Of a DNA stretch of 64,000 nucleotides, positions 4,294 through 53,569 are shown in pieces. Each line of letters begins with the position of its first letter. Position 1 is the stretch's first letter. The DNA comes from an uncultured Bacteroidales bacterium (lineage in GTDB: Bacteria; Bacteroidota; Bacteroidia; Bacteroidales; Paludibacteraceae). A program made the translations under genes and the position numbers. The stretch is from positions 86,252 to 150,251 of the forward strand of contig ONEZ01000001.1 in NCBI GenBank assembly GCA_900316995.1. The letters run 5' to 3'. A model generated the notes under the pieces. It was not told the DNA's origin, did not search any database, and was given only the letters and a program-made list of their open reading frames with translations.

Positions 4294-4328
4294 TTAACTG
4301 TCAAATGTCAACTATCAACTGTCAACTA
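4294..4328 (+). repeat. 7-mer tandem array between gltD and asnB
   Basis: Five 7-bp units in a row: TTAACTG, TCAAATG, TCAACTA, TCAACTG, TCAACTA. It begins four bases after the gltD stop and ends just before the asnB start. It belongs to the same family as the arrays at 6001, 19884, 41817, 43049 and 53536. Confidence 0.9.
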
Positions 4329-4335
4329 AATAATT

Positions 4336-6003
4336 ATGTGTGGAATAACTTGTGCATTTAACTTGAAAAGCGACGCGGATAGTCTGCGTCCCAAGATACT
4401 TGAGATGTCAAAGAAAATCAGGCATCGCGGTCCTGATTGGTCTGGCATATTCTCCTGTCCTAAAGCCATCATGGCGCATGAAAGACTTTCAATAGTTGAT
4501 CCAATGTCTGGCGGACAGCCCATTTACAGCAAAGACAGAAAATTAGTACTTGCCGTAAACGGTGAAATATACAACCATCAGAGCATACGTAACAGGCTTG
4601 GTTCAAAATATGAATTTCAAACACACTCAGATTGTGAAGTGATTCTTGCCCTATACCGTGAAAAGGGCAAAGACTTTCTGGAGGATTTGAACGGCATTTT
4701 TGCTTTTGCGTTGTATGACATAGAGAAAAACATCTTTATGATTGGACGAGACCATATAGGCATAATACCATTATACCAAGGATGGGACAATAACGGGACA
4801 TATTACGTATCATCAGAGCTTAAAGCCCTTGAAGGCCAGTGCTGCAAGATTGAGGAGTTCCTGCCAGGCCAGTACTATTACAGTCCTGACGGGCAGCCAA
4901 CCATCTGGTACAAACGAGACTGGATGGAATATGATGCGGTAAAAGACAACCATACCTCAATACCTGAACTTAGGAAGGCGCTTGAAGACGCTGTGGAGCG
5001 TCAGCTTATGACAGATGTGCCATACGGTGTGCTGCTCTCAGGCGGTCTTGACTCATCAGTAATATCTGCCATAGTAAAGAAATTTGCAGCAAGACGTGTG
5101 GAGAGTGGCAACACCGCAGAGGCATGGTGGCCACGCCTGCACTCTTTTGCAGTAGGTCTTGAAGGGTCGCCAGACCTTAAAGCCGCCCGTAAGGTGGCTG
5201 AACACATAGGCACTGTGCATCATGAGCTTGTTTTCACCCTGCGTGAAGGGCTTGACGCCATACGTGATGTTATCTATCATATAGAGACCTACGATGTAAC
5301 CACTGTGCGTGCCAGCACCCCCATGTACCTGCTTGCCCGTTTCATAAAGTCAATGGGCATAAAAATGGTTCTTTCAGGCGAGGGCGCAGATGAAATATTC
5401 GGAGGGTACCTCTACTTTCACAAAGCTCCAAACGCAGAGGAGTTCCATAAGGAAACAGTACGCAAGCTATCCATGCTGCATCTGTATGACTGTCTGAGAG
5501 CAAACAAATCTCTTGCCGCCTGGGGAGTGGAGGGACGAGTGCCTTTCCTTGACAAAGAGTTTCTTGACGTGGCAATGAGGCTCAATCCTAAAGACAAGAT
5601 GGTTACAAAAGAACACCCAATGGAGAAATGGATTGTTCGCAAGGCATTTGAAGACTATCTGCCTGAAAGCGTGGCATGGAGGCAGAAAGAACAGTTCTCA
5701 GACGGAGTGGGCTACAGCTGGATTGACCAGCTTAAGGCCATAGCCTCTGAGCAGGTAAGTGATGAAGAGTTTGAACGTGCTGCGGAACGATTCCCTATAA
5801 ATACCCCGATGACTAAGGAGGAGTATTGCTACCGCCGCATTTACGAGGAGCATTTTCCATCTGAGAGTGCTGCCAAATGTGTGCCGTCACTACCATCAGT
5901 GGCATGTAGCACCCCAATAGCCCTTGAGTGGGATGCAGCATTCAAAAAAATGGCAGACCCCTCAGGCCGCGCCGTAAACGTACACGTCAATTCAAACTGT
6001 TAA
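4336..6003 (+). CDS. asnB: Asparagine synthase (glutamine-hydrolysing)
   Basis: The 555-residue enzyme makes asparagine from aspartate, ATP and glutamine. The N-terminus MCGIT puts the catalytic Cys at position 2 once Met is removed, as in class II glutaminases. The C-terminal synthetase domain has the PP-loop motif SGGLDSS near residue 237. Length matches E. coli AsnB. The TAA stop is the first three bases of a 7-mer tandem array. Confidence 0.96.
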   Translation: MCGITCAFNLKSDADSLRPKILEMSKKIRHRGPDWSGIFSCPKAIMAHERLSIVDPMSGGQPIYSKDRKLVLAVNGEIYNHQSIRNRLGSKYEFQTHSDCEVILALYREKGKDFLEDLNGIFAFALYDIEKNIFMIGRDHIGIIPLYQGWDNNGTYYVSSELKALEGQCCKIEEFLPGQYYYSPDGQPTIWYKRDWMEYDAVKDNHTSIPELRKALEDAVERQLMTDVPYGVLLSGGLDSSVISAIVKKFAARRVESGNTAEAWWPRLHSFAVGLEGSPDLKAARKVAEHIGTVHHELVFTLREGLDAIRDVIYHIETYDVTTVRASTPMYLLARFIKSMGIKMVLSGEGADEIFGGYLYFHKAPNAEEFHKETVRKLSMLHLYDCLRANKSLAAWGVEGRVPFLDKEFLDVAMRLNPKDKMVTKEHPMEKWIVRKAFEDYLPESVAWRQKEQFSDGVGYSWIDQLKAIASEQVSDEEFERAAERFPINTPMTKEEYCYRRIYEEHFPSESAAKCVPSLPSVACSTPIALEWDAAFKKMADPSGRAVNVHVNSNC

Positions 6004-6049
6004 CTGTTAACTGTCAACTGTCAACTATCAAATGTCAAATGTCAACTAA
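6001..6049 (+). repeat. 7-mer tandem array starting at the asnB stop
   Basis: Seven 7-bp units: TAACTGT twice, CAACTGT, CAACTAT, CAAATGT twice, CAACTAA. The first three bases are the asnB stop codon, and the array fills nearly all of the gap to glmS. Confidence 0.93.
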
Positions 6050-6055
6050 TACAAT

Positions 6056-19873: not shown

Positions 19874-19953
19874 CTGTCTATTATCAACTGTCAATTGTCA
19901 ACTGTCAACTGTCAACTGTCAACTGTCAACTGTCAACTGTCAACTGTCAACTG
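19871..19953 (+). repeat. Large 7-mer array filling the recN-panB gap
   Basis: TAACTGT at the recN stop, a six-base break, then ten 7-bp units from 19884 to 19953; nine are exactly TCAACTG and one is TCAATTG. The array ends one base before the stop codon of convergent panB (19955-19957). The forward strand of the perfect repeat has no stop in any frame, while the reverse strand has TGA every 21 bases in each frame. Confidence 0.96.
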
Positions 19954-19954
19954 A

Positions 19955-37359: not shown

Positions 37360-37388
37360 ATCAATATTACATATAATGGTTTACGCGG

Positions 37389-37420: not shown

Positions 37421-37454
37421 CCTATTTGATTAATAAACAAATACAATACATATA

Positions 37455-39315: not shown

Positions 39316-40562
39316 TGGAGCTTTTAAATGAAATATTCAGTGCCCTGAAGGCCAACAAGCTTCGTACCGCACTCACAGGCTTTGCCATAGTGTGGGGAAT
39401 TTTTATGCTTATAATTCTGCTCTCAGCTGGCAACGGCCTTCAAAACGGCATGTCAAGCAACTTTTTCTACATGGCAAAAAACACCATAGCCCTCTACCCT
39501 GGCACCACCACCCTGCCATACGGAGGATTCCAGAAAGGCAGAGCACTTAAATTCAGCCCGTCTGACGTTGACTTTATAGAGGAGGAGCTTAATAAAATGG
39601 CTGACATTCTGCAATTCACACCCATTTACAACGCTTGGAATGACACCATTGTGCACGGAAAAGAGTTTGCGACATGCACGCTGTCAGGAGTAAGGCCCGG
39701 ATATGAGGTGATGCGCAGCCTCAGCATATCAGACGGCAGATTCCTTAACCAAGCCGACGAGGTTCAGCGTAACAAAGTTATTCTTCTTCATACAAAGACA
39801 GCCGATGTCCTTTTTGGAGATAAAAAGGCTGTTGGCAGCTTTGTGAACGTTAACGGCCTGCCGTTTAAGGTTGTAGGCGTATATACAGAAAAAAGTGAGT
39901 CCTGGAGGCCGAGTGTCTATATACCATTTGCCACATCGCAAGTGATATACAACCCTAAGGGAGACATTACAGACATATCATTTTCTGTGGGAGACATAAC
40001 CACAAAGGAGCAGAGTGACGAATTTGCAAAAAAGATACGCACCATGCTTGCACACCGCCTTAACTTTGACCCAAACGATGAAGAGGCAGTGTGGATACGT
40101 GACAGTGTGGCTAACGCCATGCAGTCAGAAGCCATATTTGCAGGCATATCATTCTTTATATGGATTATAGGCATAGGCACATTGGTGGCTGGCATTGTGG
40201 GCGTGGGCAATATAATGCTTATCACAGTAAAGGAGCGCACAAAGGAGTTTGGCATAAGAAAGGCGCTGGGCGCATCGCCGTACTCAATATTAAAGTCTGT
40301 CATACTTGAATCATTGATAATTACTATAACATTTGGATATATAGGGCTGTTTTTAGGCATATTGGTGAGTGAGGGAGTGGCTAAGGTTTTGGAAATGATG
40401 CCAAAGAAAGAGGGTCCCACAATGTTTATGAATCCTACCGTAGATCTGCCTATAGCCCTTGCGGCACTTGCCATTTTGGTTATAGCAGGCACACTTGCCG
40501 GATACATTCCTGCACGCAAGGCGGTAAACATCAAACCAATAGAGGCATTACAGGCAAAATAA
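39315..40562 (+). CDS. MacB/FtsX-type ABC permease 1
   Basis: The 415-residue protein has an N-terminal membrane helix (TGFAIVWGIFMLIILLSAG), a periplasmic MacB_PCD domain, and three C-terminal helices with VKERTKEFGIRKALGAS and GYIPARKAVNIKPIEAL. It is a paralogue of the next gene; the two probably form a heterodimer. One-base overlaps join it to both neighbours. Confidence 0.93.
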   Translation: MELLNEIFSALKANKLRTALTGFAIVWGIFMLIILLSAGNGLQNGMSSNFFYMAKNTIALYPGTTTLPYGGFQKGRALKFSPSDVDFIEEELNKMADILQFTPIYNAWNDTIVHGKEFATCTLSGVRPGYEVMRSLSISDGRFLNQADEVQRNKVILLHTKTADVLFGDKKAVGSFVNVNGLPFKVVGVYTEKSESWRPSVYIPFATSQVIYNPKGDITDISFSVGDITTKEQSDEFAKKIRTMLAHRLNFDPNDEEAVWIRDSVANAMQSEAIFAGISFFIWIIGIGTLVAGIVGVGNIMLITVKERTKEFGIRKALGASPYSILKSVILESLIITITFGYIGLFLGILVSEGVAKVLEMMPKKEGPTMFMNPTVDLPIALAALAILVIAGTLAGYIPARKAVNIKPIEALQAK

Positions 40563-41812
40563 TGTTTGATATAGACAGCATACAGGAGATTTGGGCTACA
40601 ATAACACGTAATAAGACACGCAGCGTGTTCACAGCTTTTGGAGTATTCTGGGGCATGGTAATGCTCATGGTACTGCTTGGCTGTGGCTTGGGGCTTGAGC
40701 GCAGTATGCTTGAAAAATGGGGCGACACATCCACCAATGCCGCATTCTTTTTTCAAGGCACCACATCAAAGCCCTACAAAGGATTTAAGAAAGGGCGCAA
40801 AGTTCAGTTTAAGATGAACGACATAGACGCCCTACGTCAAAAATTCCGCGAGATAGAACGATGCTCGCCCATTGTGTGGTCATCAGCGCAGAAAGTTCTG
40901 TATCTTGACAAATCAACCAGCGGCGTTAACATGATGGGGCTTTCAAGTGACTACAACAGCATAAACCCTTGCAAACTTATAGAAGGGCGTTTTCTCAATA
41001 ACATAGATGAAGTTCAGAGCCGCAAGGTGTGTATGATAGGAACAAAAGTTAAAAATGACCTGTACGGAGCCAGCAACGCCACAGGCACCATTATATGGAT
41101 AAACGGTGCCGCATACACAGTCATAGGCGTTATGGAGAAGATGGCAGACATAAACCTGTTTGGCAGTCCGGAGGAATCTATCTATGTACCCTACACCACT
41201 CTGGCGCAAACATCAAACAAGGGTAACAAAATAGACTGCATATCTCTGGCGGCACGCAAAGATGTAAACATAGCAGACTTTCAAAATGAAGTAGCAGCAT
41301 ACCTGAAGGAGATTCACAGTGTTGACCCCGATGATGAGCAAGGCATAGGTATGTTCAACACCAAGCAGTTTTTTGACCTGTTCAGTATGCTATTTCTTGG
41401 AATAAGAATCCTTATATGGATTGTAGGGTTAGGAACGCTAACCGCAGGTATGGTTGGCATTAGCAATATTATGCTGGTTACTGTAAAGGAGCGCACACAG
41501 GAGATAGGCGTGCGAAGAGCGCTCGGAGCCTCACCTTATGTTATAATTCGCCAAATAATGAGCGAAAGTCTGGTACTTGCACTCATCGCAGGGTTGATAG
41601 GACTTATGACCGGTGTGGTTATATCTGCCGTAGCAGATCATTTCCTTAGTTCAGCGCCAAGTGAGGACAGTTTTATTGATGGGCTGTACGTCCCGTTTGA
41701 CATAGCCGTATCAGTTCTTATAATACTTGTGGTGAGCGGTCTGCTCTCAGGTCTTATGCCAGCATACAGGGCTATAAAGATTAAAGCGATAGACGCACTG
41801 AGAGACGAATGA
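40562..41812 (+). CDS. MacB/FtsX-type ABC permease 2
   Basis: The 416-residue protein has the same layout as its neighbour: N-terminal helix (FTAFGVFWGMVMLMVLLGCG), periplasmic domain, three C-terminal helices, and VKERTQEIGVRRALGASP. The stop is followed within five bases by a reverse-oriented 7-mer array, then by the adaptor gene. Confidence 0.93.
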   Translation: MFDIDSIQEIWATITRNKTRSVFTAFGVFWGMVMLMVLLGCGLGLERSMLEKWGDTSTNAAFFFQGTTSKPYKGFKKGRKVQFKMNDIDALRQKFREIERCSPIVWSSAQKVLYLDKSTSGVNMMGLSSDYNSINPCKLIEGRFLNNIDEVQSRKVCMIGTKVKNDLYGASNATGTIIWINGAAYTVIGVMEKMADINLFGSPEESIYVPYTTLAQTSNKGNKIDCISLAARKDVNIADFQNEVAAYLKEIHSVDPDDEQGIGMFNTKQFFDLFSMLFLGIRILIWIVGLGTLTAGMVGISNIMLVTVKERTQEIGVRRALGASPYVIIRQIMSESLVLALIAGLIGLMTGVVISAVADHFLSSAPSEDSFIDGLYVPFDIAVSVLIILVVSGLLSGLMPAYRAIKIKAIDALRDE

Positions 41813-41816
41813 TATT

Positions 41817-41904
41817 TGACAGTTGACAATTGACAGTTGACAGTTATAATAACTCTCAATTATCAATTATCAATTCAATACGATTAAACGATTAAACGAT
41901 TCAA
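41817..41904 (-). repeat. Compound short tandem arrays before the adaptor gene
   Basis: Four 7-bp units TGACAGT/TGACAAT (41817-41844), the reverse form of the TCAACTG family, come first. Then TCAATTA repeats (about 41856-41878), then three 8-bp units CGATTAAA, CGATTAAA, CGATTCAA (41881-41904) ending five bases before the adaptor ATG. Almost the whole gap is repeat. Confidence 0.88.
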
Positions 41905-41909
41905 TAACC

Positions 41910-42995
41910 ATGAAAAAGGCATTACGTATCATTGGCATTGTGCTGCTTGTGGCAGCTGTTGTAGGAACATTTGTGTATCTATGGATGAAATCACGTCCAG
42001 AGGAGAAAGTTTTTGAAACCACGCAGGCAGAAATACGCACCATAGAGAAGAACACCCTGGCCACTGGCAAAATACAGCCTCGTGATGAAGTCAAAATCAA
42101 GCCACAGATATCAGGTGTCATAGACAAGCTTTATAAAGAAGCTGGTCAAAAAGTACAGCAAGGCGAGCTTATTGCAAAACTCAAAGTCATACCAGACATG
42201 AACACCCTGGCCAATGCAGAAGCCTCAATAAAATTAGCCCAGATAAAATTACATAAAGCGCAGACCGACTATGACAGAGAGAAGCAGCTTTATGACAGAA
42301 AATTAGTCTCCGATGCTGACATGGAGAACTACGACGTAGCCCTAAACAACGCCAAAGAAGAGTTGCAGCGCGCAAAAAATCTGTATGACATTGCAAAAGA
42401 GGGAGCCACCAAAAGTTCTCAGAACACCAGTACCACTTTTGTACGCTCCACAGTATCAGGAACCATACTTGACATCCCTGAAAAAGAAGGAAACTCCGTA
42501 GTGCTCACAAACAACTTCAATGAAGGTACCACAATAGCCACTGTTGCAAATATGAATGATATGCTTTTTGTAGGCAAGATAGATGAGACAGAGGTTGGCA
42601 AACTTAACGTGGGGATGCCACTTACAATCCTTATTGGAGCCATTGAGGGTGAGAAATACGAGGCAGTACTTGAGTATATTTCACCTAAAGGAACCGAGGA
42701 GAACGGAGCGGTGATGTTTGAGATTAAAGCAGCTGTTAAAATCCCTGACGGAGAGTATCTGAGAGCAGGTTACAGTGCCAATGCCCAAATAACACTCAGC
42801 AAGGCGGACAGCATTGTGGCCATTCCTGAGAACACACTTCAGTTTGAAGGCACCACCCCATACGTGGAGGTGCTCACATCAGAGAAACCAGCAGTTTATG
42901 AACGTCGCAACGTAACCACCGGCTTGTCAGACGGAATGTACATTGAAATTAAAGAGGGAGTAACGTTAGAGGACAAACTAAAAGTGATTAATTGA
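41910..42995 (+). CDS. MacA-like periplasmic adaptor protein
   Basis: The 361-residue membrane-fusion protein has one N-terminal helix (IGIVLLVAAVVGTFVYLW), a lipoyl/barrel-sandwich start (TGKIQPRDEVKIKPQISG), a coiled-coil hairpin (about 95-160) and beta-barrel domains. It should link the MacB-type permeases to an outer-membrane TolC channel, probably the one at 43628. Substrates might be drugs, peptides or lipids. Confidence 0.92.
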   Translation: MKKALRIIGIVLLVAAVVGTFVYLWMKSRPEEKVFETTQAEIRTIEKNTLATGKIQPRDEVKIKPQISGVIDKLYKEAGQKVQQGELIAKLKVIPDMNTLANAEASIKLAQIKLHKAQTDYDREKQLYDRKLVSDADMENYDVALNNAKEELQRAKNLYDIAKEGATKSSQNTSTTFVRSTVSGTILDIPEKEGNSVVLTNNFNEGTTIATVANMNDMLFVGKIDETEVGKLNVGMPLTILIGAIEGEKYEAVLEYISPKGTEENGAVMFEIKAAVKIPDGEYLRAGYSANAQITLSKADSIVAIPENTLQFEGTTPYVEVLTSEKPAVYERRNVTTGLSDGMYIEIKEGVTLEDKLKVIN

Positions 42996-43048
42996 AAATT
43001 GAAAAATCACGGAAAGGCGAAGCCTTGACGTAAAATTGAGAGTTATTA

Positions 43049-43082
43049 TAACTGTCAAATGTCAACTGTCAAATGTCAACTC
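43049..43082 (+). repeat. 7-mer array overlapping the nuclease-like gene's 3' end
   Basis: Units TAACTG, TCAAATG, TCAACTG, TCAAATG, TCAACTC. The minus-strand gene ends inside it: its last residues LTFDS and TGA stop (43062-43064) are encoded by array units. Confidence 0.9.
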
Positions 43083-43496
43083 ATTAAAATCCGGTACTGC
43101 GCTTAAGTATTCATGCCTCCCTTTGGCAAAGTCAAGCTTTATGCAGTACAGTTGTTTTGAGTTTGTAAGTATTATATACGGGGCGCGTAGTTTGGTATTG
43201 TAGCTCACAGCCTGGAGTAAGACACTGCTATTAATCTCCACATCAGGGGCTTTGAACTCTATGAGTATGGCAGGGACACCAGCCTTATACACCACAGTAT
43301 CGCATCGGCGTAGTGAACCATTAAGTTTCAAACCTGTCTCCGTTGCTATTGATGTCTGCGGGTAGCCTTTCTCGTTGACCAGCCAGCAACAGAACCACTG
43401 ACGCACCCCCTCTTCTGGAGTATGCGCCACCCACCTGCCTCTAAAATGGTCAAAAACAAGAGGTCTTCCCGCTTCCGTTTTAGTTTTAATCTCCAT
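43062..43496 (-). CDS. Type I restriction HsdR_N-like nuclease-fold protein
   Basis: The 144-residue protein looks like the N-terminal endonuclease part of type I restriction enzymes. LRRCDTVVYKAGVPAILIEFKAP carries the Asp and Glu-x-Lys pattern of PD-(D/E)XK nucleases. No helicase or methylase follows, so a complete restriction enzyme is excluded. Standalone forms are common in Bacteroidota and their job is unclear. It sits inverted between the adaptor and TolC genes. Confidence 0.82.
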   Translation of the reverse strand: MEIKTKTEAGRPLVFDHFRGRWVAHTPEEGVRQWFCCWLVNEKGYPQTSIATETGLKLNGSLRRCDTVVYKAGVPAILIEFKAPDVEINSSVLLQAVSYNTKLRAPYIILTNSKQLYCIKLDFAKGRHEYLSAVPDFNELTFDS

Positions 43497-43514
43497 TACA
43501 ATTGAAAAGCACTA

Positions 43515-43544
43515 CAAATTTAGCGAATTATCACATTATTGCAA
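43515..43544 (-). promoter_or_regulatory. Promoter of the nuclease-fold gene
   Basis: TAAATTTG (43515-43522, minus strand) and TTG (43542-43544), 19 bases apart, fit the consensus. Confidence 0.65.
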
Positions 43545-43581
43545 AAATTTGTTAACACAAACACAATTTTAATTTTAATGC

Positions 43582-43612
43582 TTTGATAATTACAGCAAAA
43601 AAACTAATTTTG
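43582..43612 (+). promoter_or_regulatory. Promoter of the TolC gene
   Basis: TTTG (43582-43585) and TAATTTTG (43605-43612), 19 bases apart, fit the Bacteroidota consensus and place transcription just before the ATG at 43628. This argues against the longer frame starting at 43583. Confidence 0.75.
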
Positions 43613-43627
43613 CGAGATAATTTTACG

Positions 43628-45079
43628 ATGATGAAATTTAGACTATTACTTCTTTTTGCGCTAACAGTGGCATCAGTCACCGCAATACAGGCGCAAAGAA
43701 AACTTACTATTGAAGAGTGTCAGGATCTTGCACTACAGGACAACAATTCAAACAAGATAAATAACGAATTGGTGGCCGCCGCCACAGATATGCGCAAATC
43801 AGCGTTTGCCGCATTTTTTCCAAAACTGAGCGCCAATGGCATGTACATGTGGAATCAGAAGAATATTGCGCTGCTGAGAAACCAGCTTGAGACTGGCATG
43901 GGTACGTTTAACGCCGCCAACTCTTCATTCACATTCAACCCTGAGAGCATACTGCCAGACATATTCCCCACCACATCATCACTGCTTGCAGATTTCTTAG
44001 GCGAGGAATACACAAAACTCCATGACCGCCTTACACTTAACATTCACAATGTTTTTGTGGGGCAGGTAGGCGTTATACAGCCTATTTACGTAGGAGGCCG
44101 CCTGCGTGAGGTTTACAACCTTTCAAAGGGAGCTGAGAAGATAGCAAAACTTAAAGCAGACAAAGGTAAGGCCGATGTAATTACAGACGTGAACGAAGCA
44201 TACTGGCGTGTAGTGGCTGTACAAGAGAAACTCAAACTTGCAACACGGTATGTTGATTTACTCAAGCAGCTTGAATCCAACGTAAGCAACGCCATTGAAG
44301 AGGGTGTTGCAACCAAGTCTGACCTGCTCAAGGTTAAGATGAAACTTACTGACGGTGAGATGAAACTTGCACAGGCTGAAGACGGACTGGCACTCTCCAA
44401 GATGGCTCTCTGCCAAATCATTGGGCTTGACCTTGACACCGACATTGAACTTGACGCTTCCAAGCTGGAGCAGTTCTCTATAGTAGCTGACACTACTGAG
44501 GCATCGCCAGAGGCACCATACCAGCGCTCTGAAATAAAATTGCTTGAAGAGGGTGAGAAAATGGCAAAATCCGTAGCTCGTCTGGCATCGGCAGGCTTAC
44601 AGCCAAACATTCTGGCGTCAGCAAACTACGTGATTTCAAACCCGAGCTGTTTTGACGGCTTTAACAATAAGTTTGACGGAATGTTCAATGTGGGCGTTGT
44701 GGTTAACATCCCTATTGCTCACGTTGACGCCATTTACCGTTACAAATCAGCCAAGCACATTGCCAAGGCCGCACAGCTCAAGCTTGAGGAGTCTGTGGAA
44801 ATGATACGCTTGCAAATAACCCAGTCAATGCAAAAGGTGAAACAGAGCAACCGCAAGCTAAAGACTGCGCAAATTAACATGGAGCAGGCAGATGAGGTTC
44901 TGCGTATGGCGCAGGACGCATACGATGAGGGAATGGCCACATCGGCAGACCTCATGATGGCGGAAACAGGCTGGCAGCAGGCCTACAGTGAGAAGATTGA
45001 CGCAGCCATAGAACTTAGAATGAACGAGATAACCCTCCAAAAGCATTTAGGAGTCTTATTACAGGATAAAAACAAATAA
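43628..45079 (+). CDS. TolC-family outer membrane efflux channel
   Basis: The 483-residue protein starts MMKFRLLLLFALTVASVTAIQAQ (signal peptide) and shows TolC-type repeats: the opening LTIEECQDLALQDN, QVGVIQPIYVGGRL, and long helical parts ending in EEGVATKSDLLKVKMKLTD and YDEGMATSADLMMAETGW. It forms the outer-membrane exit duct. Lying between a MacB-type system and an ABC-2 system, it may serve both. Confidence 0.93.
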   Translation: MMKFRLLLLFALTVASVTAIQAQRKLTIEECQDLALQDNNSNKINNELVAAATDMRKSAFAAFFPKLSANGMYMWNQKNIALLRNQLETGMGTFNAANSSFTFNPESILPDIFPTTSSLLADFLGEEYTKLHDRLTLNIHNVFVGQVGVIQPIYVGGRLREVYNLSKGAEKIAKLKADKGKADVITDVNEAYWRVVAVQEKLKLATRYVDLLKQLESNVSNAIEEGVATKSDLLKVKMKLTDGEMKLAQAEDGLALSKMALCQIIGLDLDTDIELDASKLEQFSIVADTTEASPEAPYQRSEIKLLEEGEKMAKSVARLASAGLQPNILASANYVISNPSCFDGFNNKFDGMFNVGVVVNIPIAHVDAIYRYKSAKHIAKAAQLKLEESVEMIRLQITQSMQKVKQSNRKLKTAQINMEQADEVLRMAQDAYDEGMATSADLMMAETGWQQAYSEKIDAAIELRMNEITLQKHLGVLLQDKNK

Positions 45080-45088
45080 AATACAGCC

Positions 45089-46132
45089 ATGGAACAACAG
45101 AAAAAAGACAGAAGAAACAGTTTGCTAATAGGACTTATAGCCATAGTTGAAGTTGTGGTTATAGTAGCCATTGTAGGCGTTTTTGTTTATCGTCCGGAAC
45201 CTGAAATCATTGCAGGTGAGGCGGAGGCTTCTGAATACCGTGTGTCAGGAAAAGTTCCTGGACGTATTGAAGAGTTCTATTTTGAGGAGGGCGACATGGT
45301 TCGCAAGGGAGACACTCTTGTATCTATCTACAGCCCTGAAGTACAAGCAAAAATGGACCAGGCACAAGCCGCACGTGCCGCTGCAGAGGCCATTCATCAA
45401 AAGGCTCTGAACGGAGCACGTAAGGAACAGATAGAGGGTGCATACGAACTTTACCAAAAGGCCAAGACAGGACGTGAGATTTATGAGAAGTCTTTTGAAC
45501 GTGTACAGCGCCTTTATGAGAAGGGGGTGATCACACTGCAAAAGCGTGATGAGACCGAGGCTCAATATAAGGCTGCACTTGCAACAGAGAAGGCTGCACT
45601 TTCACAGTATAACATGGCAAAGAAAGGTGCGCAAGAAGAGGATAAAGAGGCTGCCAAGGCCATGGTTGAGCGTGTAAATGGTATAATTGAGGAAGTTAAG
45701 ATAGCACAAGGTGAGAAGTATCTTGTATCTCCTATTGACGGTATGGTATCAGGAATATTCCCAAAGCGTGGAGAGCTTGTGGGACAGGGCTCCCCAGTCA
45801 TGAGTATCCTTGACATTAACGATATTTGGTTCGTGTTCTCCATACGAGAAGATTTACTTGAAGGTTACGGCATAGGTTCAGAGTGGTATGTACAGGTTCC
45901 AGCCCTTGGCAAGCGTACATACAAGGTTAGAATCACCCACATAAAGGCAATGGCAAGTTACGCTACTTGGAGAGCCACCAAATCCAATGACCGTTATGAC
46001 ACCCGTACCTTTGAGGTAAAGGCTCGTCCGCTTGAGCCAATAGACGGTTTGCACCCAGGCATGACAGCCGTTATTACAGAACGCCCAACTGAGTACGATC
46101 ACTACAACAACAGCAGGTCCTACAAAAAGTGA
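45089..46132 (+). CDS. HlyD-family adaptor protein
   Basis: The 347-residue membrane-fusion protein has one N-terminal helix (LIAIVEVVVIVAIVGVFVY), a lipoyl half-motif (YRVSGKVPGRIEEFYFEEGD), a long coiled coil (about 85-200) and a second lipoyl half (SPIDGMVSGIFPKRGELV). It starts nine bases after the TolC stop and overlaps the next permease (GTGA at 46129), so it works with the ABC-2 permeases. Confidence 0.92.
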   Translation: MEQQKKDRRNSLLIGLIAIVEVVVIVAIVGVFVYRPEPEIIAGEAEASEYRVSGKVPGRIEEFYFEEGDMVRKGDTLVSIYSPEVQAKMDQAQAARAAAEAIHQKALNGARKEQIEGAYELYQKAKTGREIYEKSFERVQRLYEKGVITLQKRDETEAQYKAALATEKAALSQYNMAKKGAQEEDKEAAKAMVERVNGIIEEVKIAQGEKYLVSPIDGMVSGIFPKRGELVGQGSPVMSILDINDIWFVFSIREDLLEGYGIGSEWYVQVPALGKRTYKVRITHIKAMASYATWRATKSNDRYDTRTFEVKARPLEPIDGLHPGMTAVITERPTEYDHYNNSRSYKK

Positions 46133-47301
46133 GTACATTCAGCAAGATAAAAGATGTTGCACAGAGAGAGCTGAAAACAATGTTCTCACGCCCTCTTTAC
46201 CTTATAGCCACAGTGGTTGTGCTGGTGGTATGCAGTTTCTTTTTCCTTAGCATTATGCAGCAAGGTGTACCTGAGCGTATGCCTATTGGCGTAGTGGACC
46301 TTGACAAATCCACCACATCACGCAATGTAATACGCCAGCTTAACTCAATGCAGCTTGTAGAGGTTAAAATGGTTTATAACTCTTACGCCGATGCCCGCCA
46401 GCAAGTGCAAACAGGAGACATCTATGGTTTCTTACTTATACCGCATGGCTTTTCTGATGACATGTTGTCATTCAAGCGTCCCACACTAAGTTTCTACACC
46501 AATAACGCATATACAGTAGGAGCTGGTATGGCATACAAGCAGATGCTGACAATGTGCAACCTTGTATCAGCAGGTTTCCACCTTGCCATTTTGAGTGCAA
46601 AAGGCATGACAAATGACATAGCAATGAAAATAGTGCAACCTATAGCAATAGAATCTCACCAGATAGCAAACCCCACAAGTAACTACTCCATCTATCTGCT
46701 TGGTACAATGATTCCTGGTGTGCTTGGGCTTATAGTGCTTATGACAACCATATTCTCAATAGGAATTGAGTTGAAAGACCGCACCGCTCCTGAGTGGATG
46801 GAAATGTCTGAAGGTTCATTTGCCATAGCTATTATAGGCAAGATGCTGCCATATACAATCCTATACTTTATACTTGGTTTGAGTTGTAATGTGCTTATGT
46901 TCCAAATAATGCACTTCCCGATAGCCGGCTCTTACATCAACATCTCCATAGGGCTATTCCTCTTTGTTGCGGTAATGCAGGCAATGGGTATAGTTATAAT
47001 AGGAGCCGCACCAGTTCTTAGAACAGCACTAAGTGTGGGTGCGCTTTATGGAATGTTAGGCTTCTCTATGTCAGGCTTCACGTTCCCGTCAATGGCAATG
47101 TTACCTCCTTTCAGGTCTCTTGCATGGCTCTTCCCTCTACGTCACTATTACATGATATATGTTAACGAGGGGCTACTTGGCGGACCTGAGGTTAACACAT
47201 TCATACCAATAGCTGCAATGATTGCCTTTTTCATTGGGCCATTCATAGTATCACGCAGGCTTAAATACGCAGCCATCAACCTAAATTACGCCCCAAAATA
47301 A
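46129..47301 (+). CDS. ABC-2 type permease 1
   Basis: The 390-residue membrane protein has a helix near residues 25-45, a large outer domain (to about 180), and five or six C-terminal helices, the ABC-2/YhhJ layout. VDLDKSTTSRNVIRQL in the outer domain is typical. Start is GTG overlapping the adaptor stop. No ATPase gene is adjacent. Confidence 0.9.
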   Translation: MSTFSKIKDVAQRELKTMFSRPLYLIATVVVLVVCSFFFLSIMQQGVPERMPIGVVDLDKSTTSRNVIRQLNSMQLVEVKMVYNSYADARQQVQTGDIYGFLLIPHGFSDDMLSFKRPTLSFYTNNAYTVGAGMAYKQMLTMCNLVSAGFHLAILSAKGMTNDIAMKIVQPIAIESHQIANPTSNYSIYLLGTMIPGVLGLIVLMTTIFSIGIELKDRTAPEWMEMSEGSFAIAIIGKMLPYTILYFILGLSCNVLMFQIMHFPIAGSYINISIGLFLFVAVMQAMGIVIIGAAPVLRTALSVGALYGMLGFSMSGFTFPSMAMLPPFRSLAWLFPLRHYYMIYVNEGLLGGPEVNTFIPIAAMIAFFIGPFIVSRRLKYAAINLNYAPK

Positions 47302-48554
47302 TGGATATGTTCAAACAAATATGGTTTGAGTTTAGAAGCGCAGTGACGTTTCTATGGCGTGTCTTTTCTGACACCATATACGCCGTATTCCATGACCCAG
47401 GCGTTACCATTATATTTGTGGTGGCAGGGCTCGCCTACCCTATTCTATACAATTTCCTCTACTGGAACAACTCGCTTACAGAGGTTCCTATTGCCATAGT
47501 TGACATGTCAGGAAGCCCGGCGAGCAACCGTTTTATAAGGGAGGTTGACGCTACACAAGATGTTAAGGTTGAGTACCGCTGCACCTCAATGCTTGAAGCG
47601 GAAAGATTACTTAAAGCTCAAAAAGTACACGGAATACTATATTTCCCTCCAGACTATGAAAACTGTTTAGAGACTATGCGTGATGTGGCTCACATATCAG
47701 CATACCTTGACATGACAAGTTTCCTTTACATGAAATCTGTGCTCTCAGCAGTTAATATGGTGATGCTCGATGAAACACACAATATCCAGCTTGACCGCTA
47801 TATGCGTATGGGCATGGACGATGAAATGGCGTGGGCGCTAATACAGAGCGCACAATATGAGGAGGTGAAGCTCTACAATGAATCAGATGGCTATGGGACT
47901 TTTCTTATACCTGCAGTGCTTGTGCTAATATTGCATCAGACCCTGCTATTTGGTACTTGTATGTTAATGGGTGCCTACTATGAAGAGCGTAAGCGAGTGT
48001 TTAATGAAAACGCACACCATTGGTCACATGCGGTGCTTATAACTTTAGGAATGGCATTCGCATTCTCTACAATATACATTGCTCTGTCAGCAATAGACCT
48101 TGTATTAGTGCCCAGAATATTCTCTCTGCCACATATAGGCAGTATGATTGACATTATGCAGTTTACAGTACCATTCCTACTTGCCACATCATTCTTCTCA
48201 ATATTTGTGGCAGGCTTTATGCGCAACCGTGAAACCGGTATGGTGGTGCTGCTTTCAACATCGCTTATTTTCTTGTTTATCTCTGGTGTGTCATGGCCAC
48301 AACCATCCATTCCAAAGGCATGGGTGTATCTGTCATATCTTATTCCATCCACATGGGGCATCCATGGTTACATTCACATTAGTTCCATGGGGGCAACCGT
48401 TAATGAAACCATTAAAGAGTTCAATGCCTTATGGATTCTTGCAGGAATCTATCTTTTGGCGGCAACCATACAGATGTACATCTTTATTAAGCCAAAAAAC
48501 AAAAGGCACATTTACCGGAATCCCAGAATTGAACGCTACCTGACAAAAAGTTAA
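47301..48554 (+). CDS. ABC-2 type permease 2
   Basis: The 417-residue protein has the same topology as the previous gene and similar motifs (IAIVDMSGSPASNRFIREV; SGVSWPQPSIPKAWVYLSYLIPST). The two share one base (TAATG) and likely act as a pair. The energy source is not encoded nearby. Confidence 0.9.
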   Translation: MDMFKQIWFEFRSAVTFLWRVFSDTIYAVFHDPGVTIIFVVAGLAYPILYNFLYWNNSLTEVPIAIVDMSGSPASNRFIREVDATQDVKVEYRCTSMLEAERLLKAQKVHGILYFPPDYENCLETMRDVAHISAYLDMTSFLYMKSVLSAVNMVMLDETHNIQLDRYMRMGMDDEMAWALIQSAQYEEVKLYNESDGYGTFLIPAVLVLILHQTLLFGTCMLMGAYYEERKRVFNENAHHWSHAVLITLGMAFAFSTIYIALSAIDLVLVPRIFSLPHIGSMIDIMQFTVPFLLATSFFSIFVAGFMRNRETGMVVLLSTSLIFLFISGVSWPQPSIPKAWVYLSYLIPSTWGIHGYIHISSMGATVNETIKEFNALWILAGIYLLAATIQMYIFIKPKNKRHIYRNPRIERYLTKS

Positions 48555-48571
48555 TAGGAGGGGTAAAAGTG
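48555..48571 (+). promoter_or_regulatory. Strong ribosome binding site of holA
   Basis: AGGAGGGG (48557-48564) lies five bases before the GTG start. Purine-rich Shine-Dalgarno sites like this are rare in this window and it supports the GTG. Confidence 0.65.
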
Positions 48572-49582
48572 GCAACCTACACCGACATAGTAAAGCAGAT
48601 AAGCATTAAGCAGTTTATGCCCATATATGTATTAATGGGCAAGGAGCCCTACTACATAGACAAACTCACAGAACTGCTTGAAGCGTCCATTCTCACAGAT
48701 GATGAAAAAGTAATGAATGAGACTGTGATATTTGGCAAGGATGCAGTTATGGAGAACATTCTCACAGATGCGCGCCAATATCCTATTATGGCGCCGTATC
48801 GTGTCATATTCATAAAGGAGGCGCAGATGCTTGATAAGAAGAAGCTGTCTCTCATAGGCAAATATCTGGAACATCCCGTAAGCAGTACAATAATTGTAGT
48901 CACCTATAAGACTGATGTTTTAGACTCAAACAAGAAAGAGAATAAAGAATGGCTCTCCAAAGCGGAAAAATTAGGGGTGGTATTCACATCGGAGAAGATA
49001 TCCGATTACAAATTACCGCCCATAATAACACAGATGGCAAACAAGGAGGGGCTTGACATTGATGACAAAGCGGTGGCCCTGCTTATTGAGCACGTGGGTT
49101 CAGATTTAACACAATTAGAAAGCATTATGAAACAGTTTAGCATAATGCTGCCTACAGGACACCGCTGCATAGACTCCGATGCTATAGAGAAGGTGGTGGG
49201 TATATCCAAGAACTACGTTCCATTTGAACTTGCAGATGCAATGTTAAAAAAGAACATACGCAAAGCAAACCTCATAATAGCCCATATCAATGATACAATT
49301 CAGAAAATAATAGCGACACTGTTTTCTTATTACTCAAATCTGCTAATCTATCAGTATATGCCGGCCGGCTTATCAGACAAAGAAGTGGCCTCCACTCTTG
49401 GAGTACAATCTTTCTTAGTAAAGAATTATAAGGATGCTGCTGCCAAATACAACAAGCGTCAGACATTTAACGCAATAGGAATTTTACGCAAATATGACAT
49501 CATGAGCAAAGGCGTAAACTGCCCTTCATCTGCAAACACACAAGGGTTGCTGAAGGAGATGGTATATAAAATATTGCATTAG
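48569..49582 (+). CDS. holA: DNA polymerase III delta subunit
   Basis: The 337-residue protein is the clamp-loader delta subunit that opens the beta clamp. The start VATYTDIVKQI, YVLMGKEPYYIDKL and the C-terminal AINAL-like helical region (VKNYKDAAAKYNKRQTFNAI) fit HolA. Start is GTG with a strong Shine-Dalgarno. It begins 15 bases after the permease stop. Confidence 0.93.
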   Translation: MATYTDIVKQISIKQFMPIYVLMGKEPYYIDKLTELLEASILTDDEKVMNETVIFGKDAVMENILTDARQYPIMAPYRVIFIKEAQMLDKKKLSLIGKYLEHPVSSTIIVVTYKTDVLDSNKKENKEWLSKAEKLGVVFTSEKISDYKLPPIITQMANKEGLDIDDKAVALLIEHVGSDLTQLESIMKQFSIMLPTGHRCIDSDAIEKVVGISKNYVPFELADAMLKKNIRKANLIIAHINDTIQKIIATLFSYYSNLLIYQYMPAGLSDKEVASTLGVQSFLVKNYKDAAAKYNKRQTFNAIGILRKYDIMSKGVNCPSSANTQGLLKEMVYKILH

Positions 49583-49622
49583 TTTTCGCCATACATTATA
49601 CACTCAAACATCATACATTAGA

Positions 49623-50975
49623 ATGAGATATTTCTTCATCGGCGTAGCAGGCACTGGGATGAGTGCCATAGCGCAGTACCTTAGCGGCAGAGGCGAACAA
49701 GTTTCGGGATCTGACCGCCTTTTTAGCAAAACAGACAAGAGTGAGACACAGCTCCAACTTGAAAGAGCCGGCATAGAGTGCCACTTCCAAGACGGCAGCG
49801 GCATAACCCCTGACACAGAAGCTGTTATTGTATCAACTGCTATTGAGGAGAGCAATGTGGAGTATCAGAAGGCAAAGAGTCTGGGCATACCAGTTATCAA
49901 GCGCTCAGCCTTGCTTGCTCAAATCTCTGACAGCATAAAGACAATAGCCGTGGGCGGCACATCAGGTAAATCAACCACCACAGCCATGATATTCCACATA
50001 CTGCAAAAATGCGGCAAGGAGCCGTCGCTCATCACTGGAGCGGGGCTTGCCACACTGCAAAAGCAAGGGCTTATTGGCAACGCCTTTAACGGCAGTGGAG
50101 AATGGCTGGTAATAGAGTCAGATGAATCAGACGGCAGCATCGTAGGCTACCATCCTGAAATAGCCCTGTTACTCAATGTGGAGCGTGACCACAAAGAGGA
50201 GAGCGAACTTATGGAACTCTTCTCTACGTTCAAATCACATACGAAAAAAGCTTTCATTGTAAACAGCAACTACCCCATTACAATGAGCCTCAGCCAAAAT
50301 GAAAGTTATAATTTTGGCACTAAAGGCAACCCTGGCATTAAGGGTAGCGGATTTGAGCAGGACGGATTCAGCATAAAATTCAATGTAAACGGTGTGCCTT
50401 GCTCCATTAACGCCATTGGTACTCACAATATGGAGAATGCACTTGCCGCCATAGCGGCAGCCGTACAGACAGGCATTACCGTGGAGCAAGCTGTTGAGGC
50501 AATAAAAGACTTTAGCGGCATATACCGCCGCGCCTCACTCGTACGTGCAGACCAGGAAAGACATCTCTATGTGGTAGATGACTTTGCTCACAACCCTTCA
50601 GAGGTAGCATCGGCCATTAAAGCTTGCCAGAGCATAACAGGCAAAGTAATAGCCTACTTCCAGCCTCACGGATTCGGACCGTTGCGCTTTATGCACAAGG
50701 AGCTTGGAGAACTGGTGGCGGCGACTCTGAGACCAAATGACATATTTGTAATTGGCGATGTATATTATGCCGGAGGCACTGTAAATCGTGACATTTCACC
50801 AGAAATAGTAAGCCAAGCCATACAATATTTGGGTAAAAACGCTATATTTGCAAAAGACAAAGAGAGTTGCAGGGCTGAAATTCTAAAAAACACACCTGAA
50901 AGAGACTGTACCATACTCATTATGGGTGCCAGGGACCCAAAACTAAGTGACTACGCACAAAGTTTTATACTTTGA
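49623..50975 (+). CDS. MurC-like Mur ligase
   Basis: The 450-residue enzyme has the MurC opening FFIGVAGTGMSAIAQYL and VSGSD, the ATP loop GTSGKSTTT (usual MurC has GTHGKTT), ESDESDGS, and the DDFAHNPSEVA element. MurC adds alanine to UDP-MurNAc; Mpl-like peptide recycling is the alternative. Three domains and length fit Mur ligases. A second, standard MurC may exist in the division cluster elsewhere. It overlaps no promoter-like gap before the next gene. Confidence 0.85.
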   Translation: MRYFFIGVAGTGMSAIAQYLSGRGEQVSGSDRLFSKTDKSETQLQLERAGIECHFQDGSGITPDTEAVIVSTAIEESNVEYQKAKSLGIPVIKRSALLAQISDSIKTIAVGGTSGKSTTTAMIFHILQKCGKEPSLITGAGLATLQKQGLIGNAFNGSGEWLVIESDESDGSIVGYHPEIALLLNVERDHKEESELMELFSTFKSHTKKAFIVNSNYPITMSLSQNESYNFGTKGNPGIKGSGFEQDGFSIKFNVNGVPCSINAIGTHNMENALAAIAAAVQTGITVEQAVEAIKDFSGIYRRASLVRADQERHLYVVDDFAHNPSEVASAIKACQSITGKVIAYFQPHGFGPLRFMHKELGELVAATLRPNDIFVIGDVYYAGGTVNRDISPEIVSQAIQYLGKNAIFAKDKESCRAEILKNTPERDCTILIMGARDPKLSDYAQSFIL

Positions 50976-50989
50976 AAGCATTGCAAGCG

Positions 50990-52579
50990 ATGAAAAGACA
51001 CTGCATTTCATTCATAGTATTCCTATTTGCGCTCACTACATGGGCGCAGGTAGTATCTGTCAATGAAGTTATAAATCCACATGTGGCAAGCGTGGATGAC
51101 TATGTGTCAGACATGGCTAAAGTATTTACGCCAGCAGAAGAGGCGCAAGTCAACAAGCTCTGCAAACAAATAGAGAATAAGGCCGATATTCAGATGTTAG
51201 TGGTCACTGTGCCGTCAATAGGCGACAGAGACCCATTCCAGTACTCCGTGGATTTATTCCAGCGTATAGGCGTGGGCGGCAAGGAGTCTAACCGTGGTAT
51301 TCTCATACTGTTATCAGTACAGGAAAAGAAGTGGCAGATACGTACTGGATACGGTGTTGAGGGGCGGTTCACTGATGCCATCTGCTCCCAGATAGGCCGT
51401 AACAAGATGGTTCCGGAATTCAAGAAAGGCAATTACTCCAAAGGTCTTACAGATGCAGTTGGATATATTCTAATCCTTGCCACCAGCGATGACGCCATGG
51501 CGGAACTTAAAGGAGAGACGGATGCGGCTGAAGCAGCCTTAAAAATGCGCAAAACGCGTGAGAATCTTAACTACTTTTGGATTCTGATAGCGCTCTGGTG
51601 TGCCGTGGCGTTTGCCATGTACTACTTTAACAAGCCATCAAAGAAACAGTCAAACAAGCCTGTTACAGACGTTGTGAAAAGCGACAACACCATTCCACTA
51701 CCATATATTATCAGCAAGGAGGTTGGGAACCATATCTACGTACAGCAAAACCCTAAGGCTGGCAAGGTGGAGTATTGGGACAAAGATTCCATAACAAGAA
51801 GCATGATTTACTTTATAGGTCCTGCTATTGCCACTGGTGCCGCCTGTGAGGTTACATTCAGTATGGGAACATTGCTTCCAATGATACTGCTATGCAATAC
51901 GTGGGTGGCTCTTAACTATATATTTGCCAGAGAGAGGAAACTGAAAAAAACAGAATCCCAATATGAAAAAAAGTTGGTATATGAAGATGGTTTCAGCGGC
52001 CCTGCATTTTGGACATCGGCATTGATAGCCCCCTGGGTGACACTTCCAGCCGCCATAGCTGTAATGGCAAAGAAGCGTAAGTACCGTGATGTCATGGCAC
52101 CATGCCCAAAGTGTGGCGGCAACCTTACTCCTTTACTTGACAATGATATTATAAAGTCAAGACTATCAACACAAGAACAGAAAGAGATGGAGATTGGCAG
52201 CCGCAAATTCAAGCTTATGATGTGTGAACATGGCCATGACATAGTGGAAGCCGTTACTGTAAAAGGGACAAAATATCATGTATGTTCACACTGCGGAGCA
52301 AGGGCTGGCAAATACCAAGGCTTAATAGTCAAAGAGAAGGCAACCACCTCAAAAAAAGGGCTACAGATAAACACATACCAATGCCTCTGCTGTGGTGAAA
52401 TGTTTGAGGAGCGTGTAGTTCTTTCAAGGTTAGAGACAGAAGCTGAACGCCAGCGCAGGCTTGAAAGAGAGCGCGAGCGTGAAGAGAATTATAGCTATTC
52501 AAACAGCGACAGTAGCAGCAGTAGCGGCAGCTACGGAGGAGGTTCCACAGGAGGAGGCGGAGCAGGAGGCTCATGGTAG
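50990..52579 (+). CDS. TPM-domain (YgcG-like) membrane protein
   Basis: The protein (about 529 residues) starts best at ATG 50990 (MKRHCISFIVFLFAL), 14 bases after the ligase stop. A TPM domain (VDDYVSDMAKVFT, GNRGILILLS-like core, IRTGYGVEGRFTD) fills about 30-165, followed by membrane segments. A Cys-rich C-terminal part follows with four CxxC knuckles (CPKCGG, CSHCGA, CLCCG). The tail is Ser/Gly-rich (SGSYGGGSTGG). Function of this family is not settled; a photosystem-repair relative gives the name only. Confidence 0.82.
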   Translation: MKRHCISFIVFLFALTTWAQVVSVNEVINPHVASVDDYVSDMAKVFTPAEEAQVNKLCKQIENKADIQMLVVTVPSIGDRDPFQYSVDLFQRIGVGGKESNRGILILLSVQEKKWQIRTGYGVEGRFTDAICSQIGRNKMVPEFKKGNYSKGLTDAVGYILILATSDDAMAELKGETDAAEAALKMRKTRENLNYFWILIALWCAVAFAMYYFNKPSKKQSNKPVTDVVKSDNTIPLPYIISKEVGNHIYVQQNPKAGKVEYWDKDSITRSMIYFIGPAIATGAACEVTFSMGTLLPMILLCNTWVALNYIFARERKLKKTESQYEKKLVYEDGFSGPAFWTSALIAPWVTLPAAIAVMAKKRKYRDVMAPCPKCGGNLTPLLDNDIIKSRLSTQEQKEMEIGSRKFKLMMCEHGHDIVEAVTVKGTKYHVCSHCGARAGKYQGLIVKEKATTSKKGLQINTYQCLCCGEMFEERVVLSRLETEAERQRRLEREREREENYSYSNSDSSSSSGSYGGGSTGGGGAGGSW

Positions 52580-52608
52580 CAGACAGCAGATAATGAGATT
52601 ATGATATT

Positions 52609-53538
52609 ATGAAAAAAGTTAAACTTGCAATATTTACGTTTATGGCAGTTTTGATTGCCATAGCGCTTTATGCACAACACACTGGTGAAATGGGACTATT
52701 TTCAAAAAAACAGCCACCTGTATGCGGCGGCTACACATCAAAGAAAGAGGAATGTAAATCTATGGAGAATGAGAAAGGTACAATATCCTCTATCTTTCTC
52801 TTCTTTTATGATGAGTACAAAGCACTTAAAATTGAATCTAAAGACGATACCGTAAAGATATACATTTGCTCAGATACAAATGAGTATCTGTACCAGGAGT
52901 TTCCATTCCCAGCCACAGACAAAACATTCTCCACTCTAACAAACTTGGTACGTAAAAACGGGCTTCTTAAATATAACGGCTGGGGCGTACATGTTAGCGG
53001 TCTGCCACTTACAACAGACTGTACATTTAGCATGAAGTTCACATCGGGGAACTCATATTACATGGAATTTAACGGTGGGCACTCCCCTATGGGATTCTAT
53101 GAGGACATGCAGAATTTTGTAAAAGATATTAAAGAACTTGTAAACTTTGACGAAGCCAGCAACAAAGATATTCCACCATACGTAAGCCCGTTCTGGGGTA
53201 CGCATAAGTTTGTGTATGAGGCTGGCGGCAAGAAGCAGACCATAATCTACTCCTCAGACCTTGAAGGGATACATGACAACATAGACCTAAAAACCTACGG
53301 AGACTTTTACAGCTACCAGCACATACACTGTAGCGGACACAAGATACACAGTGGGCAGGAACGTTATGACCTTGACATAGAGGAGTATTTTGAAGATTCA
53401 GAGCAGAAGCCTTCAACACGAAACAGCACCGCAGCAATCATTTACCAACGTGCAGGCAAACTTGAAATGGAAGTTCTCCAAGTTTGCCCCAGCATAGCCG
53501 GCAAAAAAATCATTCTCAAGGAGATAGAGGAAGAATAA
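52609..53538 (+). CDS. Hypothetical secreted protein
   Basis: The 309-residue protein has an N-terminal signal sequence (VKLAIFTFMAVLIAIALYAQ) and no recognised domain. Soluble mixed alpha/beta composition with several Cys is seen. I do not recognise a function. Its TAA stop is the first part of a TAACTG unit that begins a 7-mer array. Confidence 0.7.
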   Translation: MKKVKLAIFTFMAVLIAIALYAQHTGEMGLFSKKQPPVCGGYTSKKEECKSMENEKGTISSIFLFFYDEYKALKIESKDDTVKIYICSDTNEYLYQEFPFPATDKTFSTLTNLVRKNGLLKYNGWGVHVSGLPLTTDCTFSMKFTSGNSYYMEFNGGHSPMGFYEDMQNFVKDIKELVNFDEASNKDIPPYVSPFWGTHKFVYEAGGKKQTIIYSSDLEGIHDNIDLKTYGDFYSYQHIHCSGHKIHSGQERYDLDIEEYFEDSEQKPSTRNSTAAIIYQRAGKLEMEVLQVCPSIAGKKIILKEIEEE

Positions 53539-53569
53539 CTGTCAACTATCAACTGTCAACTGTCAACTG
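53536..53569 (+). repeat. 7-mer array filling the gap before convergent metF
   Basis: TAACTG at the upstream stop, then TCAACTA and three TCAACTG units. The array ends two bases before the metF stop (53572-53574), as at recN/panB. Confidence 0.93.

Follow-up and report, generated by a model that had tools for sequence, protein, structure and literature searches.

In the 64,000-nucleotide stretch of an uncultured Bacteroidales bacterium (Paludibacteraceae; contig ONEZ01000001.1, positions 86,252 to 150,251), hereafter the window, tandem arrays of the heptamer TCAACTG and its variants lie between genes and often touch stop codons. These are probably dispersed intergenic heptamer arrays of the class known in cyanobacteria as short tandemly repeated repetitive (STRR) sequences, often embedded in composite gap fillers, which grow by slippage, are copied between gaps and halt at coding sequence, contact with a stop codon being a by-product. 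Polymerase slippage would multiply the units, and recombination or template switching could copy composites from one gap to another. Growth would be tolerated up to coding sequence only; an array entering the 3′ end of a gene would replace the last few codons and the stop. Such replacement would be harmless because the reverse strand of the repeat gives a TGA within 21 nt. Because arrays reach right up to the flanking genes, contact with a stop codon, or provision of one, is frequent, and the coincidence would reflect encroachment and have no function.

Arrays in the Window

An earlier note on this DNA had reported at least six TCAACTG arrays in about 50 kb, and six were found in the window. 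A two-unit pattern with at most two mismatches gives 29 matches here against 0.64 expected from shuffles. Five units occupy 4294–4328 (plus strand, gltD/asnB gap, 4 nt after the end of gltD), seven 6000–6048 (plus, asnB/glmS gap), ten 19884–19953 (plus, convergent recN/panB gap) and four each 43055–43082 and 53542–53569 (both plus). Three units with degenerate flanks lie at 41820–41840 on the minus strand, 7 nt after the stop of a MacB/FtsX-like permease gene.

As the note had stated, the TAA of asnB (6001–6003, within the first unit) and that of the gene 52609–53538 (53536–53538) lead directly into the CTG of a unit; at the latter, TAACTG and the four-unit array together (53536–53569, plus strand) almost fill the convergent gap before the MTHFR gene. 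At recN the TAA (19871–19873) is likewise followed by CTG, but the regular array begins only 10 nt further on, behind the irregular edge TAACTGTCTATTA (stop and edge together 19871–19883, plus strand). The arrays in the two convergent gaps (19874–19954 and 53539–53571), described as exact fits, fill them nearly. The TGA and last six codons of the minus-strand gene 43062–43496 (...ELTFDS*) are indeed supplied by the array, over 21 nt (43062–43082). metH does end in TTTTGACAGTT, but this is a single heptamer outside any array and carries no weight as evidence. The perfect repeat is stop-free in the forward direction and has one TGA per 21 nt, in all frames, in reverse, also in agreement with the note.

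Several other features of the window may be recorded. An 8-mer array (AACTCCTA / ACTCCTTA) at 34171–34237 runs across the end of the gene 33630–34187 and its gap. A restriction-modification gene of MmeI type lies at 26613–29405, and the gene 43062–43496 encodes a lone HSDR_N-type domain. A Por secretion tail was detected in the sample and, together with TAnnTTTG motifs, points to Bacteroidota.

Abundance and Distribution

The source genome (G000) is a 2.15 Mb draft in 48 contigs, 83% complete. Arrays of three or more units were counted in 742 kb (34%) of it, in stretches chosen by position, on contigs already known from repeat matches only. Array density per kb is biased upward because the contigs were chosen from earlier repeat matches; the choice has no obvious effect on the position statistics. 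The census gave 48 TCAACTG arrays, 45 of them in gaps or at a gap edge, one inside a gene and two at stretch ends. In 464 kb there are 35 arrays of at least three units, whereas 60 scrambled units averaged 0.1, the highest count being 5. The two-unit pattern (at most two mismatches) matches the whole genome 290 times forward and 272 times in reverse. A reversed-pattern control in the genome search was uninformative because TCAACTG read backwards is a rotation of itself.

Periods of 7 and 8, with their doubles 14 and 16, account for 96 of 111 gap arrays with periods of 5–16; in coding sequence they account for only 2 of 46, periods 12 and 15 being dominant. The array inside a gene is in polA, where eight units lie in frame after the 5′-nuclease part (L036:9958–10013, equal to G000:C11:49958–50013, minus strand), the coding strand being the stop-free one. 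Gain or loss of one 7-nt unit there would shift the frame ahead of the polymerase part. The polA array and the two at stretch ends were left out of the position counts (3 of 48 rows); 2 of 35 rows were left out of the start test, 4 of 17 in the congeners and 26 of 161 in the cyanobacterial loci described below.

Gap classes are occupied proportionally and none is enriched: 37 arrays lie in co-directional, 3 in convergent and 5 in divergent gaps, against 277, 38 and 60 of the 375 background gaps of at least 20 nt. Co-directional gaps hold 19 sense and 18 antisense arrays. In a weak test of replication-strand bias by GC skew, stretches of positive skew hold 14 plus- and 17 minus-strand arrays, and those of negative skew 12 and 5.

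A three-unit pattern with at most two mismatches was found in 13 of 61 genomes, including 7 of 16 of the genus (its own included). Gap arrays of period 7 or 8 are common in G000 and its congeners G001 and G002, fewer in G003 and in the sister species G012, and none lies in the 40 kb examined of G011. Among the matches listed (80 records), runs of four perfect units come mostly from cyanobacteria; the non-cyanobacterial ones among these are three from Bacteroidota, two from one Firmicutes assembly and one from Desulfobacterales. Three named Bacteroidota loci with the repeat have no close genes in common with the sample. Once the six other records were set aside, the sample of matches comprised 113 loci regarded as cyanobacterial, 74 of them by name. 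These loci were selected for four perfect units, and further arrays in them are not independent. Their gaps hold 135 arrays; near-edge counts use arrays not overlapping gene calls.

Contact with Stop Codons

The placement of the arrays is non-random, as had been proposed, with a moderate excess at stops. In G000, 20 of 45 arrays contain a stop or lie at most 5 nt from one; uniform placement in the same gaps would give 12.2 ± 2.7, and 23 of 5000 simulations reach 20. The excess is strong in the listed cyanobacterial loci (46 of 135 arrays against 21.5 ± 3.7). Starts are not enriched within 10 nt of the first 33 arrays of G000 (7 against 5.9 ± 2.0) or at the 135 cyanobacterial arrays (12 against 13.4 ± 3.3).

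Contacts with stops are mostly made by the 3′ edge of the TCAACTG strand. Stops lie within 5 nt or inside at 18 of 21 such edges in G000 and at 3 of 22 of the 5′ edges; in the listed cyanobacterial loci the counts within 5 nt are 46 of 81 and 0 of 74. The word TAACT stands at the 5′ edge of 4 of 5 arrays located at stops and of 17 of 40 elsewhere (3.3% of random intergenic 21-mers). TAACT at the stops of asnB, recN and the 52609 gene is the array's own 5′ edge.

Orthologous Gaps in Related Species

In the sister species G012, both flanks could be located for 14 of the 45 arrays (flank identity 74–98%, gaps sorted by eye). Ten of the 14 orthologous gaps are without a TCAACTG array: seven hold no array, two (at 6000 and 43055) have other heptamer-like sequence, and one (at 41820) contains a palindrome and no array. 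One gap is conserved, with equal length (L031 5082, 61 and 61 bp). The remaining three, at 4294, L034 11337 and L045 12111, have related or fewer units, e.g., three related units (TTAACTGTCAATTCTCAATTA) at 4294 and about 1.5 units against four in G000 at L045 12111. Two sites are nearly empty in G012: the gap at L034 6295 measures 159 bp in G000 and 1 bp in G012, and a second 81 bp as against an overlap of 14. No target duplication was seen by eye at the near-empty site. At L034 6295 four other congeners carry a different sequence, a candidate repeat, that begins at the stop codon and resembles another intergenic repeat of G000. Array-free gaps can be highly conserved, 37360–37454 being identical in G012, and no array of at least three units came above threshold in the 113 kb of the sister genome that have orthologous counterparts in G000.

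The recN–panB adjacency was found in 6 of 14 species examined, its own included, and these six show five array arrangements or no gap. TCAACTG units in G000 correspond to inverted 8-mers in G002, to TCCACTG units with an arm of TTGACAG (the same heptamer read from the opposite strand) in G003, to ATACATC units in G010 and to AAAATTG with CAACTTT-type units in G001; G012 has neither gap nor array. According to frames read by the author, RecN shares the ending ...KEL(L/I), after which the stop is given by the filler in G001, G002, G003 and G010; in G000 it coincides with the array edge, and in G012 it falls within the opposite gene.

Unit variants differ between lineages as well. TCAAATG makes up 27 of 220 units in G000 and none of 49 in G001–G003, and TCCACTG 1 of 220 and 8 of 49. 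The gap upstream of the orthologue of the gene at 41910, in which TTGACAG/GTGGACA units follow almost directly after the stop, differs between G001 and G003 (L093, L092) by one 7-nt unit. Lineage-specific units and the 7-nt step speak for repeats spreading and turning over inside each genome, through slippage and probably also copying.

Composite Gap Fillers

Many gaps of G000 are mosaics in which 8-mer GGTGAATC units, ATTGAAA-type heptamers, a GTTATTATAAC core and palindromes are followed by the TCAACTG array. In 13 of 45 gaps GGTGAATC units, all oriented alike, lie upstream of the array; they are never reversed there and do not occur downstream, where the remaining gap is usually very short (median 5 nt versus 53 upstream). 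The composite junction (at most two mismatches) was found among the 61 genomes 12 times in G000, five times in the sister G012 and once each, weakly, in two others. A palindromic repeat ending in GATGACG or GAGTGACG directly adjoins heptamer or 8-mer arrays at several copies. Ends of the palindromic repeat read CTCAGGATGACG, CAGAATGACG or CAGAGTGACG (L034, L033, L045, L050, L127, L138 and others); its end words have 18 and 16 matches in the 742 kb, some in coding sequence, often with arrays directly after them.

Two composites lie in the window. The gap 41813–41909 (minus strand) holds, beside the array 41820–41840, a core, TCAATTA units (41856–41875) and ACGATTAA 8-mers (41880–41901), and folds into an imperfect hairpin. 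The convergent gap 42996–43082 (plus strand) consists of TTGAAAA units, an AAGGC-GAA-GCCTT hairpin, a GAGTTATTATAACTG core and the TCAACTG-family array. Both composites fold beyond shuffles (z = −3.5 and −4.5 for the former, −2.5 and −2.4 for the latter). Ten strands were folded in all, and none of the six from array-only gaps was better than shuffles; the two arrays filling convergent gaps gave z = 0.64, −1.12, 1.27 and −0.75. No terminator-like site (G+C-rich hairpin with T-run) coincides with the three arrays in 40000–55000, the stretch scanned. A search of the window against Rfam at gathering thresholds gave no match.

The reverse strand of array plus core contains a perfect TTGACA-N16-TATAAT (12/12) at 41823–41850 (plus strand) and 43072–43045 (minus strand). 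A further perfect TTGACA-N16-TATAAT occurs at 41697–41724, inside the permease gene 40562–41812. Main promoters of Bacteroidota use TAnnTTTG, and TAnnTTTGCA words are frequent in the gaps of G000; the sigma-70-like match at the two composites is judged to be incidental.

Polarity towards Genes

In G000 the 3′ edge of the TCAACTG strand is nearer to a gene boundary in 34 arrays and the 5′ edge in 9 (p = 0.00017); 3′ edges face starts and stops about equally (24 and 21). With arrays that overlap a gene call set aside, 24 of 32 have the 3′ edge closer. In the listed cyanobacterial loci this holds for 106 of 115 arrays not overlapping a gene call (106:9), alike in the 74 named loci (72:5, i.e., 72 of 77) and the other 39 (34:4). 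There the polarity weakens with distance; with both edges at least 80 nt from genes it is 16 of 21 for arrays of at least four units and 17 of 27 for at least three. Also against a general rule, in the congeners the ratio is 8:5 and not significant, and in G000 the polarity is gone when both edges are at least 10 nt from genes (7 of 14).

Other 7- and 8-mer arrays were compared in G000, the congeners and the cyanobacterial loci. For arrays at most 15 nt from a gene, the C-richer strand runs into the gene 85:20 where the two strands of the unit are equal in stop (or start) codons (22:9, 19:6 and 44:5 in the three sets) and 79:15 where they are unequal, in the pooled sets; an array near two boundaries may enter once for each, and arrays that overlap gene ends were kept. 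Codon content was rejected as a sufficient cause because codon-equal arrays are as polar as the rest. Array-free gap ends have little to mild bias of this kind (197:194, 122:88 and 311:217), and for arrays more than 15 nt from a gene the bias is missing in Bacteroidota (15:14 and 8:13), with cyanobacteria retaining some (97:46).

Quadruplexes cannot explain the polarity of TCAACTG, since TCAACTG/CAGTTGA has no G-run. When arrays wholly outside genes are each counted once, those without GG give 80:4 in the cyanobacterial loci and 30:14 in G000 and congeners, and Bacteroidota arrays with GG give 29:4. Given the last two ratios, G-content may matter in Bacteroidota, where the polarity may be stronger for G-richer units. 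Overall, the rule is strong in cyanobacteria and modest in Bacteroidota. It may tentatively be proposed that a single DNA-level rule governs 7- and 8-base arrays beside bacterial genes, the C-richer strand entering the gene 5′→3′ whether at a start or at a stop, over at least two phyla and several unit families, independently of G-quadruplexes and of the stop and start codons of the unit; this generalization is rather unlikely to hold.

Alternative Explanations

The stop-centred reading of the earlier note is mostly wrong, and its interpretation is supported in part. It had suggested slippage seeded at a stop, TAA followed by CTG beginning the array. The stops of asnB, recN and the 52609 gene, each the first TAACTG, and the excess of stop contacts would agree with this, but it is very improbable: the TAACT edge is frequent in arrays away from stops, contacts occur mostly at the opposite, 3′ edge, in several gaps the orthologous stop has a different kind of array or none, and the recN stop moves with the filler. 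Arrays could alternatively have a role in RNA at gene ends, where they would terminate transcription, stabilise mRNA or control translation; the folding of the two composites speaks for such a role, as does the translational control which MacGregor proposed for TAACTGA repeats upstream of starts (PMC4679880). An RNA role is nevertheless improbable, given that orientation in co-directional gaps is neutral, convergent gaps are not enriched (3/45 versus 38/375), array-only gaps and the two arrays filling convergent gaps fold no better than shuffles, Rfam and the terminator scan gave nothing at the places covered, and gap contents vary freely between species. No test run here gave support to a function in transcript or protein ends. 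Hardly credible is the reverse strand as a set of promoter −35 boxes, TTGACA recurring every 7 nt with TATAAT 16 nt on. Its two 12/12 matches are set against a core present in 4 of 45 gaps, of which those at 41820 and L034 11337 face the downstream gene and those at 43055 and L031 5082 do not, and against the frequent TAnnTTTGCA words, recalling the TAnnTTTG of Bacteroidota promoters.

The note had also considered an inserted element. The array could be the tail of a non-autonomous mobile element, similar to repetitive extragenic palindromic (REP) sequences or miniature inverted-repeat transposable elements, that inserts beside genes with the array end outward. Near-empty orthologous sites, the fixed orientation of GGTGAATC relative to the array, the palindrome abutting arrays at several copies and the polarity towards genes would all fit. 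This explanation is unlikely all the same: there is no target duplication by eye, the arrays at 6000, 19884 and 53542 lack any other module, and arrangements at the recN site vary between species. Mobilisation by a REP-associated tyrosine transposase or by retro-mobilisation was rejected, Y1_Tnp (PF01797; controls match in 5 of 14) and the reverse transcriptase RVT_1 (PF00078) having no match in the 83%-complete G000, other transposase families not being searched.

Slippage, copying between gaps and a halt at coding sequence form the probable explanation; selection on coding ends and an element-like history fit the data. The comparison of copy number, proposed earlier for related strains, was made with congeneric species, which differ in the presence, length and type of arrays, with 7-nt steps in few cases. 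Several points weigh against this explanation. The stop excess is absent in the three congeners (3 of 13 versus 3.2 ± 1.5). Slippage with coding constraint leaves the polarity unexplained, codon-equal arrays being equally polar, and the constant orientation of GGTGAATC suggests that larger units are copied together. The genes were called with the author's own simple caller.

Comparison with Known Repeats

Seven-base tandem repeats capable of forming hairpins, of unknown function, are known as STRR sequences of filamentous cyanobacteria (PMC2670836); the TCAACTG arrays, which belong to another host phylum, appear to resemble them. Heptanucleotide repeats form a hairpin in a Nostoc intron, according to PMC3488679. 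The arrays share the traits of the heptamer class: many tandem loci (48 arrays in 742 kb), a mostly intergenic position (45/48) and, in few cases, 7-nt length steps between relatives. REP and other palindromic intergenic repeats form a further class for comparison; a palindromic repeat is often found beside the arrays, but the arrays themselves are non-palindromic and also occur without it.

Rehm et al. (2015, PMC4692102) describe dispersed, mostly intergenic GGGAATC and GGGGA(C/T)T heptamers in Xanthomonas and Nostoc, for which they found no function. The G-rich strand of these heptamers is found close to stops when it is the sense strand and ahead of starts when it is the antisense strand, and some repeats overlap stops. 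Occurrence on both strands, mostly between genes, variable copy number and boundary polarity are common to both; the 5′ edge of the G-richer strand lies near the neighbouring open reading frame, in any direction, here too (the 34:9 and 106:9 above). Differences are that the Rehm heptamers form G-quadruplexes in vitro, preferably from four units, whereas TCAACTG has no G-run or GG; that 90% of them lie between the same reading frames in two species, with extensive variation in length and sequence, whereas most orthologous gaps here (10/14) lack the array; and that they are under-represented in divergent gaps, TCAACTG giving 5/45 versus 60/375 in the background.

MacGregor (2015, PMC4679880) reported mostly intergenic TAACTGA direct repeats in Beggiatoaceae, Cyanobacteria and Bacteroidetes. 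Some sets overlap the stop of the upstream gene, which was explained by stops in all frames of one strand. Seven-nucleotide indels between related strains, mixtures with other heptamers in some genomes, and some close relatives lacking the repeats at the same gap were described there as well. The unit differs, the commonest here being TCAACTG, TCAACTA and TCAAATG, and most sets of the giant sulfur bacterium are directed at a start codon, whereas starts and stops are faced about equally here (24 and 21). No relevant paper on the letters TCAACTG was found in the open-access literature, which does not amount to absence from print. Added to prior work are a unit that lacks G-runs, composites whose orientation is constant and, at an orthologous gap, the exchange of one array type for another.

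Significance

If the polarity rule holds, it would indicate one undescribed process that lays or extends arrays outward from the gap interior and would refill gaps with different units in each species. Polarity in repeats without G-runs makes the cause of the published heptamer polarity an open and directly testable question. The stops and last residues of conserved proteins, e.g., RecN, can be set by the repeat of the adjoining gap, and such array-set C-termini matter when C-terminal differences between proteins are interpreted.

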